34,498 nt of DNA. Source: Gemmatimonadaceae bacterium (GTDB lineage Bacteria; Gemmatimonadota; Gemmatimonadetes; Gemmatimonadales; Gemmatimonadaceae). The translations under genes were made by a program, and so were the position numbers. Shown piece after piece: positions 13,416-34,498 of this stretch; position 1 is the stretch's first letter, and every line of letters begins with the position of its first letter. The notes beneath the pieces are model-generated. The model was not told where the DNA came from. It worked only from the letters and a program-made list of their open reading frames with translations, and did no database searches. The stretch is from NCBI GenBank assembly GCA_019694735.1, contig JAIBBJ010000146.1, forward strand, positions 1 through 34,498, read 5' to 3'.

Positions 13416-14188
13416 TTGATCACCGTGCCGAGGCGGGACCAGCGGATGTCGGTGATCGCGGGCCAGGCGCGATCGGAATCATCCGCGTTGTAGGAGTAGT
13501 ACACGAAGAGCGGCCGGCCGCGGATGTTGCGGCGCGGGACGAACCCGTAGAAGCGGCTGTCGATCGAGTCGTAACGGTTGTCGCCCATCATCCAGAACGT
13601 GCCCTCGGGCACGATGAACGGGCCCCACTCGTCGATGCTCGGCTCGGCGGGCGGCGCGCCGAAGCGCGAGCCCTTGAGCTCGACGCGGTGCTGCCAGCCG
13701 AGGATGGGGTCCACGTGGTCGCCGCGGAGCGGGCCGGGGCGGCCGGAGGCCCAGCCCTGGCGCTGCGGCTCGCCGTTCACGTGGACGACGCCCTCGCGCG
13801 CATAGAGGGTGTCGCCGGGCATGCCGATGACGCGCTTGACGACGGTGGGCGTGGGGTCGTCGGGGCTGAACGACTGGAAGGGCGAGACGAAGACGACGAT
13901 GTCGCCGCGGCGGGGCTCGGCGTAGCCCGGCAGGTTCACGTCGGTGAACGGGATGTGCGGGCCGAAGCGCAGCTTGTTGACGAAGAGCCAGTCGCCCACG
14001 AGGAGCGTGGGGATCATCGAGCCCGAGGGGATGCGGTAGGCCTCGATGAGGAAGGTGCGGAGGAGGAGGAAGATCGCGAGGGTGCCGGCGACCGACTTGA
14101 CCACCTCCCATGACTTGCCGGAGGAGCGGCTGCCCTTGCGGGCGGCGGCGACGGAACTGGACTTGGTCGAGGACTTCTTCGCGGCCAC
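13412..14188 (-). CDS. lepB: Signal peptidase I
   Basis: The 258 aa membrane serine protease removes signal peptides from exported proteins. A basic Ser/Lys-rich N-terminus (residues 1-25) precedes one membrane helix (about 31-50). The nucleophile Ser57 is in YRIPSGSMIPT. The general base Lys118 is in TVVKRVIGMPGD. Box D is WMMGDNRYDSIDSRFYGFVP. All family boxes are present. It is the first gene of the six-gene minus-strand operon that includes several exported proteins, and its stop overlaps the RidA-like gene. The basic tail before the helix is longer than in E. coli-type enzymes that have two helices. Confidence 0.95.
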   Translation of the reverse strand: MAAKKSSTKSSSVAAARKGSRSSGKSWEVVKSVAGTLAIFLLLRTFLIEAYRIPSGSMIPTLLVGDWLFVNKLRFGPHIPFTDVNLPGYAEPRRGDIVVFVSPFQSFSPDDPTPTVVKRVIGMPGDTLYAREGVVHVNGEPQRQGWASGRPGPLRGDHVDPILGWQHRVELKGSRFGAPPAEPSIDEWGPFIVPEGTFWMMGDNRYDSIDSRFYGFVPRRNIRGRPLFVYYSYNADDSDRAWPAITDIRWSRLGTVIK

Positions 14189-27003: not shown

Positions 27004-30000
27004 CTACTTCCGGGTCGGGATCGCGTACTCCTCGGTCTTCGGCCGCTCGGGGAACTTGAACCAGCCGGACACCCAGAGCCGCAGCTCGTCCATGATCTCA
27101 TAGACCGTCGGGATCACGAGGAGGGTGAGCAGCGTCGAGGTGATGGTGCCGCCGATGATGGCGCGGCCGAGGGGGGCGCGGAAGTCGGCGCCCTCGCCGA
27201 TGCCGAGCGCGACGGGGATCATGCCGGCGATGAGCGCGAGCGTGGTCATCATGATCGGCCGCAGGCGCACGCGCCCCGCCTCGATGATGGCCGAGCGCCG
27301 GTCCATCCCCTGCTCCTGTCCCCATTTCGCGAAGTCGATGAGCAGGATGGCGTTCTTGGCCACGATGCCCATCAGCAGGATGACGCCGATCATCGACATG
27401 ATGTTCAGCGTGTCGTTGGTGATGATGAGCGCGAGCACCACGCCGATGAGCGACAGCGGGAGCGAGATGAGGATCGCGATCGGCTCGAGGAACGAGCCGA
27501 ACTGCATGACGAGGATCAGGTACATCAGCATCAGGGCGATGCCGAGCGCGGCGAGGATGTCGCCGAACACCTGCGCCTGGTCCTTGGCCTCGCCGCCGAA
27601 CCCGGTCGTGACGCCGGCGGGGAGCTTGAGGGTGGCGACCTTCGCGACGAGGGCGCCGGTGATCTCGCCGAGCGAGTGGCCGCTGGCGACGTTGGCCTGC
27701 ACGACGATGACGTTGTCGCGGTCGAGGTGGGAGATCTTCGCCGGGCCGAGGCCCTGCGACACGGTGGCGAGCTGGCCGAGGGGCATCATGCGGACGCCGC
27801 CGTTGGGGCCGCGCACCGCGATCGGGAGCCGCTCGATGTCGGCCACGCGCTGGCGGGACTCGGGGTGGAGCCGGACGCGGACCTTCCGGTTCTCGCCGGC
27901 GGGGTCCACCCAGTCGCCGGCGTCCATGCCGGCGAAGGCGGGCCGCAGCGACTGCGCGATCTCGCCGACGGTGATGCCGAGCGACCCGGCGAGGGCGCGG
28001 TTGAGCTCGATCGAGAGCTCGGGCTTCTGGCCCTTGGTGGAGAGCGAGACGTCCACCGCGCCGGGGATGCCCTTGAGCACCGCCATCACGGTGTCGGCGG
28101 CGGCCTGCAGCTGCCGCCCGTCGTTGCCGCGCAGCTCGTACTGCACCTGCTTGATCGCGCCGCCGAAGCCGTTGGTGTAGACGGCCACGGTCGCGCCGCC
28201 GATCCGCTTGACCTCCTCGCGGAGCATCGCGCCGAAGCGGTCCTGGGTGATGTCGCGGGTACGCTTGGGCGTCATGCGCACGTAGACGCTGGCGATGTCC
28301 ACCGCGCCGAGCGCCTCCGACGGGTCCATGCCGCCGCCGGCGCCGATGGTGGTGAAGGTGTACTTCACCTCCGGGTGCGACCGGGCGAGGCGCGCGGCCT
28401 CCTCCGCCTTGAGCCGCGTGTACTCGAGGTTCGAGCCGGGCGGGGTCTCCACCTGGATCACGAACTCCGAGTTGTCGGTGACGGGGACGAAGCCGAAGCC
28501 GCCGATGGTCGCCTGCAGGGCGATCGCGCCGACCATCGACAGCGTGGCGAGACCGACCATCGCGAGCCGGTGGTCGAGCGCCCAGCCGACCACGCGCGTG
28601 TAGCGCTCGGCCTGCCGGTCGAACCAGCCGTTGAACACGACGAGCTTGCGGGAGAGCCAGCTGCGGTGCTCATGCGACTCGAGCTCGGGGTCCGGCCAGT
28701 AGGCGGAGAGCATCGGGTCGAGCGAGAACGAGACGAACAGCGACACCAGCACCGCGCAGGCGATGGTGAGCGCGAACGGCTTGAACCACTGGCCGGAGAG
28801 CCCGTACATGAACCCGATCGGCACGAACACCGCGACGATCGAGAAGGTGGTCGCGGCGACCGCGAGCCCGATCTCGTCGGTGCCCTCGTGCGCGGCCTTG
28901 AAGTGGTCCTTCCCCATCTCGACGTGCCGCACGATGTTCTCGCGCACCACGATCGCGTCGTCGATCAGGATGCCGATCGCGAGCGAGAGGCCGAGGAGCG
29001 ACATCGTGTTGAGCGTGAAGCCGAACGCCCACACCGACACGAACGCGGCGAGCACCGAGATCGGCAGCGCGAGGCCGGTGATGACGGTCGAGCGCCACGA
29101 GTTGAGGAACACGAACACCACGAGCACGGTGAGGAGCGCGCCCTCGATCAGCGTGCTCTTCACGTTCGCCACCGAGGCGGTCACCCGCTCGCCGCGGTCC
29201 TGGATCACGTCGATCGTCGTGCCGGCGGGGAGGGTCGTGCGGATCCCCTCGACCGCCGCGAGGACCTTCTCGGCGACGTCGGTCGTCGAGTAGCCCTTCG
29301 CCTTCTTGATCATGATGCCGACGGCGTCCTTGCCGTTGTAGATCGCGGCCGTGCGCTGCTCGGCGGTGCCGTCGCGCGCGGTGGCGACCTCGCCGAGGCG
29401 GATCGCGCGGCCGTTGCGCTGCGCGACCACGAGGCGCAGGAAGTCCTCCGGCGTCTCGAGCTTGCCCTTGAGGCGGATCGCGCGCTCGTCGATCGCGCCG
29501 TTGATCCGGCCGACCGGCACCGCGAGGTTCTGCGACATCAGCGCGCCGACGACCTCGGCGACCGTGACGCCGGCCGCCTCCATCGCCTGCGGGCGGATCT
29601 CGACGGTGAGCTCGCGCTCCACGCCGCCCACCACGACCGCCTCGGCCACGCCGGGGATCGAGCGCAGTACGCGCGTGAGCTCGGGGTCGGCGATGCGCGT
29701 GAGGGCCGGCGCGTCGAGCGTGCTCGAGTTGAGCGAGAGCTGGACGATCGGCTGGTCCGCGGGGTCGAACCGCGTGAGCACCGGCTCCTTCATCTCGGCC
29801 GGGAGCTCCGAGCGGATGCCGCTGATCTTGTCGCGGATGTCCTGCGAGGCCTGCTGCAGGTCCTTCTCGAAGACGAAGTAGACGGTGACGTTGGCGAAGC
29901 CGTCCTGGGCCGCGCCCATGATGCGGTCCACGCCGGAGATGCCGCTGACGGCCTCCTCGACGCGGTCGAGCACCTCGCGCTCCACGACGTCCGGCGAGGC

Positions 30001-30159
30001 GCCGGGATAGGGGATCGCGACGTTGATGATCGGCTGCTGGACGTCCGGGAACTCGTCGGTCTCGAGCTGCCCGAGCGCGAACAGGCCGAAGACGACCAGG
30101 GCCACCATCGAGACGATGGTGATCAGCGGCCGCTTGATGGCGAAGTCGGAGATGAACAC
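27004..30159 (-). CDS. RND efflux pump inner-membrane permease (AcrB/HAE1 type)
   Basis: The 1051 aa length is normal for the family. It starts MFISDFAIKRPLITIV, the typical N-terminus, with TM1 at residues ~10-30. Two periplasmic loops are each ~300 residues, and the usual twelve membrane helices are present. The proton-relay acidic pair of TM4 is in SLAIGILIDDAIVVREN. The C-terminal half repeats the pattern (LLMGIVAKNAILLIDFAKWG, RPIMMTTLALIAGMIPVALG). The hydrophobic-and-amphiphile export (HAE1) type fits better than metal RND because the TM4 motif is DD rather than the metal-pump form. The start is GTG at 30159. It is the last gene of the operon TetR/TolC-adaptor-permease and ends near the terminator. 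Substrates are unknown. Confidence 0.93.
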   Translation of the reverse strand: MFISDFAIKRPLITIVSMVALVVFGLFALGQLETDEFPDVQQPIINVAIPYPGASPDVVEREVLDRVEEAVSGISGVDRIMGAAQDGFANVTVYFVFEKDLQQASQDIRDKISGIRSELPAEMKEPVLTRFDPADQPIVQLSLNSSTLDAPALTRIADPELTRVLRSIPGVAEAVVVGGVERELTVEIRPQAMEAAGVTVAEVVGALMSQNLAVPVGRINGAIDERAIRLKGKLETPEDFLRLVVAQRNGRAIRLGEVATARDGTAEQRTAAIYNGKDAVGIMIKKAKGYSTTDVAEKVLAAVEGIRTTLPAGTTIDVIQDRGERVTASVANVKSTLIEGALLTVLVVFVFLNSWRSTVITGLALPISVLAAFVSVWAFGFTLNTMSLLGLSLAIGILIDDAIVVRENIVRHVEMGKDHFKAAHEGTDEIGLAVAATTFSIVAVFVPIGFMYGLSGQWFKPFALTIACAVLVSLFVSFSLDPMLSAYWPDPELESHEHRSWLSRKLVVFNGWFDRQAERYTRVVGWALDHRLAMVGLATLSMVGAIALQATIGGFGFVPVTDNSEFVIQVETPPGSNLEYTRLKAEEAARLARSHPEVKYTFTTIGAGGGMDPSEALGAVDIASVYVRMTPKRTRDITQDRFGAMLREEVKRIGGATVAVYTNGFGGAIKQVQYELRGNDGRQLQAAADTVMAVLKGIPGAVDVSLSTKGQKPELSIELNRALAGSLGITVGEIAQSLRPAFAGMDAGDWVDPAGENRKVRVRLHPESRQRVADIERLPIAVRGPNGGVRMMPLGQLATVSQGLGPAKISHLDRDNVIVVQANVASGHSLGEITGALVAKVATLKLPAGVTTGFGGEAKDQAQVFGDILAALGIALMLMYLILVMQFGSFLEPIAILISLPLSLIGVVLALIITNDTLNIMSMIGVILLMGIVAKNAILLIDFAKWGQEQGMDRRSAIIEAGRVRLRPIMMTTLALIAGMIPVALGIGEGADFRAPLGRAIIGGTITSTLLTLLVIPTVYEIMDELRLWVSGWFKFPERPKTEEYAIPTRK

Positions 30160-30199: not shown

Positions 30200-31312
30200 T
30201 CAGGGCGTCCGCGGCGACGGCTGGTCGCTCGGCTGCGTCACCTTGAGCGGGGTGTTGGGGCTGATGCCGAGGGCAGGGCCGAGGAGCAGCGTGTCGCCGG
30301 CGGCGATGCCGCGCGTGACCTCGTAGCGCTCGGCGGCCTCGTCGCGCGCACCGAGCGTCACCTCGACCTTCTCGGTGCGGCCGCCCTTGAGGCGGAGCAC
30401 CGTCGGCACGAGGCCGCGCTGGTCGATCGCGGTCTCGGGCACCGTGAGCGCCTCGCGCGAGTCGCTCGCGACGCGCCCCTCGGCGAAGAGCCCGGCGACG
30501 AGCTGGTTGCCGCCGTTCGGGATGCGCACGAAGAGCCGCACCTGGCGCGTCTGCGGGTCGGCGCTCGGGTTGATGCTCGAGATGCGGCCCTCGAAGGTGC
30601 GGCCCGGGTAGCCGGTCACCGCGAAGCGCACCGGGGCACCGAGGCGCACGGCCGAGAGCTGCTCGGCGGGCACGGCGGCCTCGAGGCGCATCGTGCCGGG
30701 GTCCACCACGCTCATCAGGGGCGACCCCGGCGCGACGACGTCGCCCGGGTTCACGAAGCGCTCGCTCACCACGCCGGCGTACGGCGCGAGCACGTTGGTG
30801 GCGTCGAGCTGCTTCTGCGCGCCGGCGAGCCGCGCCCGGGCGTCGTCGAGCATCGTGCGTGCGGTGAGGTCGCCGCGACGCGCGTTCTCGAGGTCGCGGT
30901 CGCTGATCGCGCCGGCCTTCGAGAGCGCCTCGGCGCGCGAGAGCTCGCGCGCCGCGATGTCGGCCGCGGTCTGCGCCGCGGTCACGCCCGAGCGCGCCGA
31001 GAGGTAGCTGTCGTTGATCGCGCGGTCGTCGATCTTCGCGAGCGACGTGCCCTCGGCGACGCGCGCGCCGGGGTCGTGGAAGACCTGCACGACCGAGCCC
31101 GCCACCTCGGCGCGGATCTGCGCCGTGCGCTCGGCGACGAGCGTGCCCGAGAGGATCGGGCCGCTCGAGAGCGTGGTCGTCGCGGCGATGGTCATCGCCT
31201 CCGGGCCGACCTGCACCGTGATCTCCTCGCCGGAAGCGGCGGCCGCATCCGACCGGCCGCAGGCGGCGAGCACGAGCGTGAGGGCCACCAGGCCGAACGA
31301 CGGACGGGACAT
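30200..31312 (-). CDS. RND efflux periplasmic adaptor lipoprotein (MFP)
   Basis: The ~370 aa product has a lipoprotein signal (SRPSFGLVALTLVLAAC, lipobox Cys at about residue 20). The adaptor architecture follows: a lipoyl-like half-motif (VVQVFHDPGARVAEGTSLAKIDDR), an alpha-hairpin (about 90-140), the second lipoyl half (VLAPYAGVVSERFVNPGDVVAPGSPLMSV), then beta-barrel and membrane-proximal domains. It links the inner-membrane pump to the TolC-type channel. The start at 31312 is preferred since it gives a normal-length signal and has GAGG 9 nt upstream. An ATG at 31351, just after the TolC stop, also has a Shine-Dalgarno sequence and would add 13 residues. Confidence 0.9.
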   Translation of the reverse strand: MSRPSFGLVALTLVLAACGRSDAAAASGEEITVQVGPEAMTIAATTTLSSGPILSGTLVAERTAQIRAEVAGSVVQVFHDPGARVAEGTSLAKIDDRAINDSYLSARSGVTAAQTAADIAARELSRAEALSKAGAISDRDLENARRGDLTARTMLDDARARLAGAQKQLDATNVLAPYAGVVSERFVNPGDVVAPGSPLMSVVDPGTMRLEAAVPAEQLSAVRLGAPVRFAVTGYPGRTFEGRISSINPSADPQTRQVRLFVRIPNGGNQLVAGLFAEGRVASDSREALTVPETAIDQRGLVPTVLRLKGGRTEKVEVTLGARDEAAERYEVTRGIAAGDTLLLGPALGISPNTPLKVTQPSDQPSPRTP

Positions 31313-31353
31313 CGGGAACATCCTCAGGTGATGGAAGGGAGCATGGGTCATGG

Positions 31354-33351
31354 TCAGCGGCCTCCCGCGGCGAGGGGGAGGTCCTTCAGCAGCGCGAGGC
31401 GGAGCCGCGCGATCTCGAGGTCGCGCGCGGCGTTCACGCGCTGGAGCCGCGCCTGCTCGAGCTGCACGCGCACCTCGGTGAGCTCGAGCTGGGTGGAGAT
31501 GCCTTCCTGGAAGCGCACCTCGGCGATCCGGTACGCCTGCGCCGCCTGCGCGTCGGTGCCGACGCTGGCGAGGTAGGCCGCCTGCGCCTGCTCGAACTGC
31601 GTGAGCGCGAGCAGCGCGTCGAGCGAGGCCCCCTCGCGCGCCTGCTGCAGCCGCTGCTGCGCCTCGGTGAGGTTCGCCTCGGCGACGAGCCGCTCGCCGC
31701 GCAGCCGCCCGCCGGTGAGCACCGGGAACGAGAGGCCGAGGGTCACGGTCCAGTTGGGGAAGTAGAGGTCGATCGCCGACGGGAGGAACGTCCCCTCGGG
31801 CGGGTACGCGAAGCGCTGGTACGTGGAGGTGAGCTGCACCGAGGGGAGGTGCGCCCGCCGCGCGGCGCGGAGGGCGAACTCGCTCGCGGTGAGCTGCGCC
31901 TCGGCCTGCCGCACCGTCGCGCGCGCGCCGGCGGTGGTGTCGGGCGTGATCGTGCGCTCGTCGGCGAGCTGCAGCGGGGCGAGCCCCGGCGCGGACACCG
32001 GCGCGCCGTCATCCCGGATCGGCGTCGTGAGCGTGAGCTCGCCCTGCAGCGGGAGGTCGAGGAGCTGCTTCAGCCGCAGGTACGCGGTGGTGCGCGCACC
32101 GCGCGCCTGGATCACGACCGGCCGCTGGTTGTCGCGCGCGACGCGGGCGCGGAGGAGGTCGAACTCGGAGGCCGAGCCGACCTCACGCCCGAGCTGCGTC
32201 TGCGTGAGCGCGCGCTCGGTGAGCACGAGCGAGCTCTCGGCGATCGCGAGGAAGCGGTCGGACGCGACGGCGTCGAAGTAGGCCTGGGCGGCGTCGAGCG
32301 CGGCCTGCGCACGCGCCGAGCCGAGGCCGATCTCCGCCGCCGTGCGTCCGGCGCGCGCGCCGGCGCGGGCCGCGGGGATCTTGCCCGCGGTATAGAGCGT
32401 CTGCGAGCCGGCGAGCGTGAAGGTGAAGGTGTTGGGCGCGGCGAAGATCTGCGAGATCGCGCCGAATCCGCCGGTCCCGCCCGTCGACCCGCCGGTGGTG
32501 TCGGGTGCGCTCGGGAAGCGCTCGGTGATCGCCTGGAACTGGTTCTGGATGGCGCGCTGGTAGCCGGCCGAGCCGTTCACCTGCGGGAGGCGCGCGGCGT
32601 CGGCCTGCGCCTGCTGGCCGCGGGCGCGGTCCACGCCGGCGATGGCGATCCGGACGCCCTCGCTCTTCTGCTCGGCGCGCTTGAGGGCATCGGCGAGGGA
32701 GAGGGTGGCGGGTGCGGGCGCCTGCTGCGCGGCGAGCCGCGGCGCGGCGGCCGGGAGCAGCAGGAGCAGCAGTGCGGCGACGGTGGCGCCGAGGGAGCGG
32801 AGGAAGAGTCGCACGTAGGTGGCGGGAGCCTGGTCCTCGGGAGGGAACATCTGCGGCATCATGTCACGGCCCATCGCGTCGGCGAAGAGCGCGCCCTGGA
32901 GCATCGCGGCGGCGGCCTTCGCGTCGGTGGCTGAGGGGATGAAGCGGTGCTGGGCGAGCCGCTCGACGTATCCCGAGAGGTCGCGGTGGGTGTTCTCCGG
33001 GTGCTCCATGGTGGGCTCCGCGCACTCGGGGCGCTCGTGCATCTCCGCCATCGCGGTGCGGAGCATCCCGCGGTGGAGGAGGAGGAACTCGTGGTCGGCC
33101 TTGGCCCAGGCGGTGAGCTCGGCGCTGGGATCGCGCGGCACGTCCGGGAGCGGCGCGACGCCGAGCGCGGCGGCGCGGGCGCGGACCGCCTCGGCGATGA
33201 GCGAGGCCTTGTCGCCGAAGAGGCGGAAGAGGGTGACCTCGTTCACGCCGGCCACCTCGGCGATGCGCCGGGTGGTCGCGCCGCGGAATCCGGATTCGGA
33301 CCAGACGCGGGCGGCGGCTTCGAGGATCTGCTGGCGGGTGGGTTCGGTCAT
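31354..33351 (-). CDS. TetR-family regulator and TolC-family outer-membrane channel in one open frame
   Basis: One uninterrupted frame of 665 codons encodes two proteins that are normally separate. Residues 1-~190 form a TetR repressor: DNA-binding helix-turn-helix at ~8-54 (TRRIAEVAGVNEVTLFRLFGDKASL), then an all-helical ligand domain ending YVRLFLRSLGA, a usual TetR C-terminus. From residue ~180 the same residues read as a Sec signal peptide (VRLFLRSLGATVAALLLLLLPAAAPRLAAQ) followed by a complete TolC-type protein (~455 residues mature): ATLSLADALKRAEQ, LYTAGKIPAARAGARAG, FPVLTGGRLRGE and FQEGISTQLELTEVRVQLEQARL. A repressor joined to an outer-membrane channel cannot work as one chain, so internal initiation at GTG 32814, processing, or an undetected stop/frameshift is likely. 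The ATG at 33351 is chosen for TetR; the frame upstream crosses the operator. Confidence 0.85.
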   Translation of the reverse strand: MTEPTRQQILEAAARVWSESGFRGATTRRIAEVAGVNEVTLFRLFGDKASLIAEAVRARAAALGVAPLPDVPRDPSAELTAWAKADHEFLLLHRGMLRTAMAEMHERPECAEPTMEHPENTHRDLSGYVERLAQHRFIPSATDAKAAAAMLQGALFADAMGRDMMPQMFPPEDQAPATYVRLFLRSLGATVAALLLLLLPAAAPRLAAQQAPAPATLSLADALKRAEQKSEGVRIAIAGVDRARGQQAQADAARLPQVNGSAGYQRAIQNQFQAITERFPSAPDTTGGSTGGTGGFGAISQIFAAPNTFTFTLAGSQTLYTAGKIPAARAGARAGRTAAEIGLGSARAQAALDAAQAYFDAVASDRFLAIAESSLVLTERALTQTQLGREVGSASEFDLLRARVARDNQRPVVIQARGARTTAYLRLKQLLDLPLQGELTLTTPIRDDGAPVSAPGLAPLQLADERTITPDTTAGARATVRQAEAQLTASEFALRAARRAHLPSVQLTSTYQRFAYPPEGTFLPSAIDLYFPNWTVTLGLSFPVLTGGRLRGERLVAEANLTEAQQRLQQAREGASLDALLALTQFEQAQAAYLASVGTDAQAAQAYRIAEVRFQEGISTQLELTEVRVQLEQARLQRVNAARDLEIARLRLALLKDLPLAAGGR
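32812..32814 (-). other. Likely internal GTG start for the TolC-family channel
   Basis: Starting at this GTG gives a 486 aa TolC-family protein with a textbook signal peptide: Met-Arg-Leu-Phe-Leu-Arg, a Leu-rich core, then AAAPRLAAQ before QAPAP. No Shine-Dalgarno sequence is seen immediately upstream, so coupling to translation of the TetR part is the most natural route. An alternative is that the genome carries a lost stop codon at the TetR end. Confidence 0.5.
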
Positions 33352-33384
33352 GGAGCTTGTGAAGTCGTTCACGATGCAAGTGCC

Positions 33385-33400
33385 TGCTTGCTCGCAAGCA
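33385..33400. promoter_or_regulatory. Putative TetR operator, palindrome 1
   Basis: TGCTTGC-TC-GCAAGCA is a perfect palindrome with 7-bp arms, 34 bp before the TetR ATG at 33351. TetR repressors commonly bind such sites in their own control region. It shares the half-site GCAAGC with palindrome 2 and overlaps it by 3 bp. Confidence 0.6.
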
Positions 33401-33413
33401 AGCGAACGCTTGC
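33398..33413. promoter_or_regulatory. Putative TetR operator, palindrome 2
   Basis: GCAAGCG-AA-CGCTTGC is a second perfect palindrome with 7-bp arms and the same 2-bp spacing. Together the two sites could bind two repressor dimers. A further single half-site GCAAG lies at 33376-33380. Confidence 0.6.
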
Positions 33414-33648: not shown

Positions 33649-34104
33649 ATGACCAAGCAGAAGCCGCAGGACCCGGCGCTCGTCGAGAAGCTCACGCCGA
33701 TCCAGTACCAGGTCACGCAGTGCAGCGCGACCGAGCCGCCGTTCCGCAACGAGTTCTGGGACCACCATGAGCCGGGCATCTACGTGGACGTGGTGTCGGG
33801 CGAGCCGCTCTTCTCGTCGCGCGACAAGTTCGACTCCGGCACCGGCTGGCCGTCGTTCACCAAGCCGATCGTGCAGGAGAACGTGACCGAGCACCGCGAC
33901 GTCTCGCACTTCATGGTGCGCACGGAGGTGCGCTCGGCGGGCGGCGACTCGCACCTCGGCCATGTGTTCGACGACGGCCCGGGCCCGATGGGGCTGCGCT
34001 ACTGCATCAACTCGGCGTCGCTGCGCTTCATCCCGGTGGCGCGGCTCGAGGCGGAGGGCTACGGCCGCTTCCTGCCGCTGTTCGAGACGCCGGAGGGGAC
34101 GTGA
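33649..34104 (+). CDS. msrB: Peptide-methionine (R)-S-oxide reductase MsrB
   Basis: The 151 aa enzyme reduces the R form of methionine sulfoxide in proteins. Family motifs are [48 protein letters not shown] and the catalytic Cys119 in [12 protein letters not shown]. It lacks the structural zinc CxxC pairs, as in Bacillus/Neisseria-type MsrB. The usual resolving Cys before WPSF is replaced by Thr65 (SGTGWPSF), while a Cys is present at position 25 ([11 protein letters not shown]). A known MsrB subclass recycles through such an N-terminal Cys. The ATG at 33649 is chosen because the domain starts soon after; the frame upstream is leader. The stop overlaps the msrA start (GTGA). Confidence 0.94.
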
Positions 34105-34498
34105 CCGTGACGACCGAACTCGCCACGCTCGCCGGCGGCTGCTTCTGGTGCCTCGAGGCGGTGTACCTCGAGCTGCGCGGCGTGCACGGCGTGAAGAGCG
34201 GCTACGCGGGCGGCCATGTGGCGCATCCGACGTACGAGCAGGTCTGCGGCAAGCAGACCGGGCACGCCGAGGTGGTGCAGGTCACGTTCGATCCCGCCGT
34301 GATCACGTACCGCGAGCTGCTCGAGGTGTTCTTCACGATCCACGACCCGACGACCAGGGACCGGCAGGGGAACGACGTGGGACCGCAGTACCGCTCGGCG
34401 GTGTTCTTCCATTCGCCGGAACAGGAGACGGTGGCCCGCGAGGCGCTGGCCGCGGCACAGGCGCACTGGCCAGCGCCGATCGTGACCGAGGTGCGGCC
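34101..34498 (+). CDS. msrA: Peptide-methionine (S)-S-oxide reductase MsrA (5' part, runs off the window)
   Basis: The first ~132 residues are present and the gene continues beyond the right edge. The active site [17 protein letters not shown] is intact, with catalytic Cys14 (from the GTG at 34101). [60 protein letters not shown] and [10 protein letters not shown] match MsrA throughout. It reduces the S form of methionine sulfoxide, complementing the overlapping msrB. The start could be GTG 34101 or the in-frame GTG 34107; the upstream GGAGGGG is better spaced for 34107. Confidence 0.94.

Follow-up and report, generated by a model that had tools for sequence, protein, structure and literature searches.

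A TetR repressor and a TolC-family channel joined in one reading frame: a candidate self-processing precursor heading an RND efflux operon in Gemmatimonadaceae

A Gemmatimonadaceae genome (GenBank assembly GCA_019694735.1, contig JAIBBJ010000146.1) carries, in the 34,498-nucleotide stretch of DNA analyzed here (hereafter the window), a gene in which a TetR repressor and a TolC-family outer-membrane channel are read as one chain. The gene is kept across the genus, and it is moderately probable that its product is a single precursor that Sec inserts and signal peptidase cleaves, such that TolC would be released and TetR left on the inner membrane. The analysis is based throughout on sequence and structure prediction.

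Results

The fused gene and its operon

The initial annotation of this DNA described a complete TetR regulator and a complete TolC-family channel in one frame without a stop, and the reading frame, the Pfam matches, and the AlphaFold2 model all agree with that description. The frame runs on the minus strand from an ATG at 33351 to a stop at 31354-31356 and has no internal stops (Table 1). PF00440 (TetR_N) matched aa 9-55 above the Pfam cut-off (E 1.8e-12; 47.3 bits against a cut-off of 24), and PF02321 (OEP) matched twice on the C-terminal two thirds, also above the cut-off (E 1.2e-42, 146 bits). The AlphaFold2 model of the fusion, built on a 78-row alignment with a mean pLDDT of 90.9, has two confident domains: a complete, all-helical TetR core (aa 6-186, pLDDT mostly >90), for which Foldseek returned the TetR regulators Ms6564, MexL, and NalC, and a complete TolC protomer fold (aa 215-653), for which it returned TolC, OprM, and CusC. 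Between the two domains, the model places a short helix at aa 189-198 and then falls below a pLDDT of 50 at aa 200-208, where the signal peptidase cut is expected.

The junction reads YVRLFLRSLGAT, then VAALLLLLLPAAAPRLAA, then QQ, and the C-terminus of TetR passes directly into the core of a signal peptide, just as first described. The junction helix stands in for the basic n-region of that peptide. The signal peptide of the TolC part occupies aa 179-208, behind the TetR domain, and is not N-terminal in the primary product.

The adaptor gene starts 2 nt past the tolC stop and the RND pump gene is next, and the locus is therefore a tripartite, multidrug-type efflux operon with its regulator first. 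That this operon is autoregulated is held, jointly with the single-precursor reading, to be moderately probable. Upstream, a gene pair at 33649-34498, judged by eye from the sequence to be msrB-like and then msrA-like, is divergent from the efflux operon and has an upstream region in common with it. The translations of the other long OEP frames of the genome (C63 and C189) revealed no similar fusion, only ordinary tolC beside adaptor genes.

Table 1. Features of the fused gene, its upstream palindromes, and the adjoining efflux genes (positions in the window)
Feature	Position	Strand	Evidence or remark
Fused tetR-tolC gene	31354..33351	-	665 aa + stop; kept in 16 genus members
TetR repressor domain, aa 1-190	32782..33351	-	TetR_N 1.8e-12; AlphaFold2 helices; helix-turn-helix dN/dS ~0.14
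Helix-turn-helix, aa 9-55	33187-33327	-	Pfam TetR_N
Junction helix YVRLFLRSLGAT, aa 179-190 (last TetR helix)	32782..32817	-	Motif also ends many unfused TetR of the family
Internal Sec signal (predicted): hydrophobic core and c-region, aa 191-208	32728..32781	-	Ala-Gln invariance, hydropathy, pLDDT
GTG codon of V180, proposed internal start	32812..32814	-	GTC/GTT/GTC in L016/L021/L022
Mature TolC-family outer-membrane channel, aa 209-665	31357..32727	-	Pfam OEP twice; Foldseek TolC, OprM, CusC
Periplasmic adaptor (RND membrane-fusion protein)	30200..31351	-	HlyD_D23 8e-31; TIGR01730 RND_mfp above cut-off
RND efflux pump (ACR_tran)	27004..30159	-	PF00873 1e-263
Operator palindrome GCAAGTGCCTGCTTGC (putative)	33376..33391	.	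GCAAGN6CTTGC match; kept upstream in relatives
Operator palindrome GCAAGCGAACGCTTGC (putative)	33398..33413	.	22 bp from first palindrome

Distribution and origin of the fusion

The same junction was searched for in 199 relatives. The genus of the window is represented by 17 genomes, and in all 16 that hold the locus the junction is open, with no stop; the seventeenth, 71% complete, has no detectable copy of the locus. A conserved stop at this point in relatives had been named at the outset as the sign of an assembly error, and the genus shows the opposite. The genomes with the open junction include G011, a single contig rated 100% complete, and the near-complete G005 and G015, in 3 and 7 contigs, respectively. 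The fused tetR-tolC gene is real, and it is fixed among members that differ by up to about one third of their residues. Two small genomes, G004 and G013, have frameshifts further down in the tolC part (loci L025 and L066) and an intact junction; these frameshifts may represent decay or assembly error.

Across the family, 110 loci were classified and 100 usable tetR/tolC pairs, 20 fused and 80 encoded as separate genes, were placed on a tree built from TetR and TolC with the junction left out. The tree requires four changes between the fused and separate states, three of which are forced by well-supported branches, and the fusions of the genus form one clade with 100% support, indicating at least three origins of the TetR-TolC fusion within the family. 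Fusions outside the genus occur in the genus coded g20 (L023, L024, L032, and L146) and in G018 (L081), where the linker is longer and basic, and the linker differs for each origin. The genus of the window has lost both the tail of TetR and the n-region of the former TolC signal, and therefore the last TetR helix directly meets the hydrophobic core.

The related Gemmatimonadaceae operons share the order of tetR and tolC, the TetR family, and the upstream palindromes, but consist of two genes, with tolC overlapping or following the tetR stop out of frame, or in frame with a stop. In most separate pairs the two genes occupy different frames, and the ATG or GTG of tolC often overlaps the tetR stop (-1 position), a layout as in translationally coupled genes; 11 pairs share a frame, with the stop kept.

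The TetR domain and its operators

The TetR part of the fusion is still constrained, judging by substitution rates within the genus, where mean pairwise dN/dS is ~0.14 for the helix-turn-helix, ~0.34 for the ligand domain, and 0.25-0.33 for TolC. The two 16-bp GCAAG-N6-CTTGC palindromes upstream of tetR are the only matches in the 3.52-Mb genome, which suggests a regulator with a single target promoter. Using the pattern G[CT]AAG-N6-CTT[AG]C within 200 bp upstream of tetR, one or two matches were found at 16/16 genus loci and at 81/86 other loci, while approximately 470 kb of other locus DNA held two only. Given the constraint on the helix-turn-helix and the retention of near-unique operators, the fused TetR very probably still binds its own promoter.

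The internal signal and cut site

The residues flanking the candidate cut site, Ala at -1 and Gln at +1 (A208 and Q209), are invariant in 16/16 genus members, amid a c-region and linker that vary in sequence and length, and the same Ala-Gln pair is present in most unfused tolC of the family. The -3 residue is small or aliphatic (Met in L011). Signal peptidase I would be expected to cut between A208 and Q209. It had been argued from the outset that one chain cannot serve both roles unless it is cleaved, and the invariant pair supplies a candidate site for that cleavage.

The strength of the signal core was measured as Kyte-Doolittle hydropathy, taking the best 18-residue mean. This value is 2.25 for the fused signals, 1.61 for ten further TolC signals from the genus (Mann-Whitney p ~3e-5, which ignores shared ancestry), and 1.73 for the unfused tolC of the family. 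As the members share ancestry, the difference may be inherited and not selected. A stronger core suits a signal that would need to be picked out after a long cytosolic domain and would then hold that domain.

Signal peptidase I is itself encoded in the window (13496-14110; PF10502, 134 bits), by one of two such genes in the genome, and a site-2-protease-family gene is present elsewhere in the genome. Both families are near-universal, and so their presence shows only that the machinery exists.

Alternative readings of the locus

The initial annotation further proposed nested translation, with some ribosomes making the TolC protein from the internal GTG 32814. In the form weighed here, starts inside tetR, at that GTG or at an ATG at aa 165 or 168, would yield TolC bearing a normal signal peptide, and the full-length fusion would act as a cytosolic repressor with an idle TolC tail. 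Several hints accord with this proposal. The V180 codon is GTG in 13 of the 16 genus members, among them every member of a 12-member subclade, and a product beginning M-R-L-F-L-R-S-L-G-A-T-V-A-A-L-L-L looks like a good signal peptide. At codons 180-181 (32809-32814, GTG-CGA), the rare CGA is kept beside the GTG in 11/16 genus members, against 7% of Arg in the gene, an over-retention that may mark an internal start or some other signal at the nucleic-acid level. Predicted RNA structure dips over aa 166-182, much as it does at the true start; the dip is broad, with its minimum at aa 168-170 and not at the GTG, and is therefore not decisive. V180 ranks 50 of 660 positions for low structure. What the hints do not supply is a conserved codon, V180 being encoded by GTC, GTT, and GTC in L016, L021, and L022. 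Codon 180 changed twice on the tree, within the range of 1-5 for other conserved Val codons, and synonymous sites change faster than the average across aa 165-178 and at an ordinary rate across aa 178-186. A synonymous-conservation scan for an RNA signal at the junction achieved a best rank of 57 among 652 windows. No Shine-Dalgarno-like motif precedes GTG 32814, which counts for little because the true tetR starts that were inspected mostly lack one too. Beyond the genus, fusions L024 and L032 lack any ATG, GTG, or TTG in the stretch from the TetR C-terminus to the signal core, and L146 has an ATG there. ATG165, which is also part of a TetR motif, is present in all 14 intact genus genes, and a start there could give a signal with a long n-region. 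The stronger hydrophobic core, for its part, would draw the full-length chain to the membrane, against the cytosolic repressor that nesting calls for. With the codon not conserved and no Shine-Dalgarno motif, a nested GTG start is not favoured as the main mechanism and is regarded as unlikely; the fusion appears able to persist without internal initiation, which may be an addition in some species.

This last possibility can be taken further, to a locus that works chiefly through one cut precursor and has an added internal start in the GTG subclade, raising channel over repressor. Every member of the 12-member subclade has the GTG, 3 of the 4 members of its sister clade lack it, and species with the GTG show less RNA structure at the site, but these samples are small and phylogenetically dependent and the rank of V180 for low structure is unexceptional, leaving the combined reading distinctly less probable than nesting by itself. 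Much further down in probability is a fusion that is a product of loss, with a non-working TetR as the passive leader of TolC. Once a stop has been lost, the TolC frame does force in-frame reading, but the helix-turn-helix is the most constrained part of the chain, both operators are kept as the sole matches in the genome, and the TetR fold is complete in the AlphaFold2 model; passive loss of repressor function is not favoured and seems very improbable. Loss of a stop through an assembly or sequencing error might be suspected in a window from a 226-contig assembly, yet it would have had to recur at the same junction in 16 separate genomes, three of them highly contiguous, and it is rejected as having next to no probability.

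Discussion

Since no stop separates the two parts and tolC is in the same frame, translation begun at the tetR ATG always yields the joined chain, and a nested start could add channel at most, never free TetR. As the frame is read here, repression has to come from the joined chain itself or from a product of its cleavage. Under the favoured single-precursor reading, the TetR domain would fold in the cytosol and the internal signal would enter Sec as an N-in/C-out signal anchor, after which signal peptidase I would cut after the invariant Ala and before the Gln. The released TolC would assemble in the outer membrane, and TetR, still carrying the hydrophobic helix at its C-terminus as an anchor, would repress its own operon from the inner membrane, or else an intramembrane protease would release it at a later point. 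One repressor would remain for each channel exported. The sequence of events assumes that a chain with a folded cytosolic domain of ~190 residues can be exported and that a membrane-held TetR dimer can bind DNA.

Several lines of evidence argue for this cut precursor: the fixation of the fusion in 16/16 genus loci as a fully supported clade; the invariant Ala-Gln amid a varying c-region and linker, combined with the more hydrophobic core; the loss of the GTG in three genus members and the lack of a start codon before the core in L024 and L032; the constraint on the TetR part and the retained operators; and the signal peptidase I and site-2-protease-family genes in the genome. A broader reading, offered tentatively and with less confidence than the precursor model itself, is that of a self-processing regulatory precursor in which what remains of a channel's signal peptide would hold the efflux repressor controlling that channel in the inner membrane. 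The number of repressors would then count exported channels, repression could sense the state of the membrane or the flux through Sec, and a single family would have given rise to such an arrangement on at least three occasions.

Efflux-pump repressors of the TetR type are viewed as proteins free in the cytosol. The repressor described here can be made only joined to an exported outer-membrane channel, which suggests that its synthesis is physically tied to export of that channel, and the locus offers a natural case of a possible one-to-one coupling between export and repression within a single operon. Two questions become testable with it: whether a TetR dimer can function at the membrane, and whether Sec handles a folded regulator ahead of a signal. 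A search of the literature, mostly of openly accessible papers, identified no description of a TetR-TolC fusion, in Gemmatimonadetes or elsewhere, and no clear precedent for a membrane-bound TetR.

Regulators of RND pumps of the AcrR/NalC/MexL type have the TetR fold and an autoregulatory position beside the pump genes in common with the fused gene, but are free cytosolic dimers, whereas here the repressor is the N-terminus of a channel precursor. For layout, the likeness lies with other systems. CadC is a membrane-bound regulator with the ToxR-type layout, and regulators of the ToxR/CadC type have a winged helix and keep their periplasmic sensor. The predicted topology of the cut precursor has the same layout, with a TetR-type helix-turn-helix in place of the winged helix and an outer part that is a channel expected to be cut off. 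ToxR itself has a cytosolic DNA-binding domain, one membrane helix, and a C-terminal part outside (PMC7496328). The resemblance to the ToxR/CadC type is one of layout only, and likeness to ToxR, to core-E1 of Hepatitis C virus, or to fbcH confers no family membership on the tetR-tolC gene. At the core-E1 junction, a cytosolic protein ends in the signal peptide of the next protein, where signal peptidase cuts, and core stays membrane-anchored until a further cut releases it (PMC5402940). That case is viral and eukaryotic and was shown by experiment, whereas the present one is predicted from sequence. Among bacteria, the fbcH cytochrome b/c1 precursor of Bradyrhizobium is likewise one gene that gives two proteins through a signal peptidase cut at an internal signal, although both of its products are subunits of one respiratory complex and neither is a regulator.
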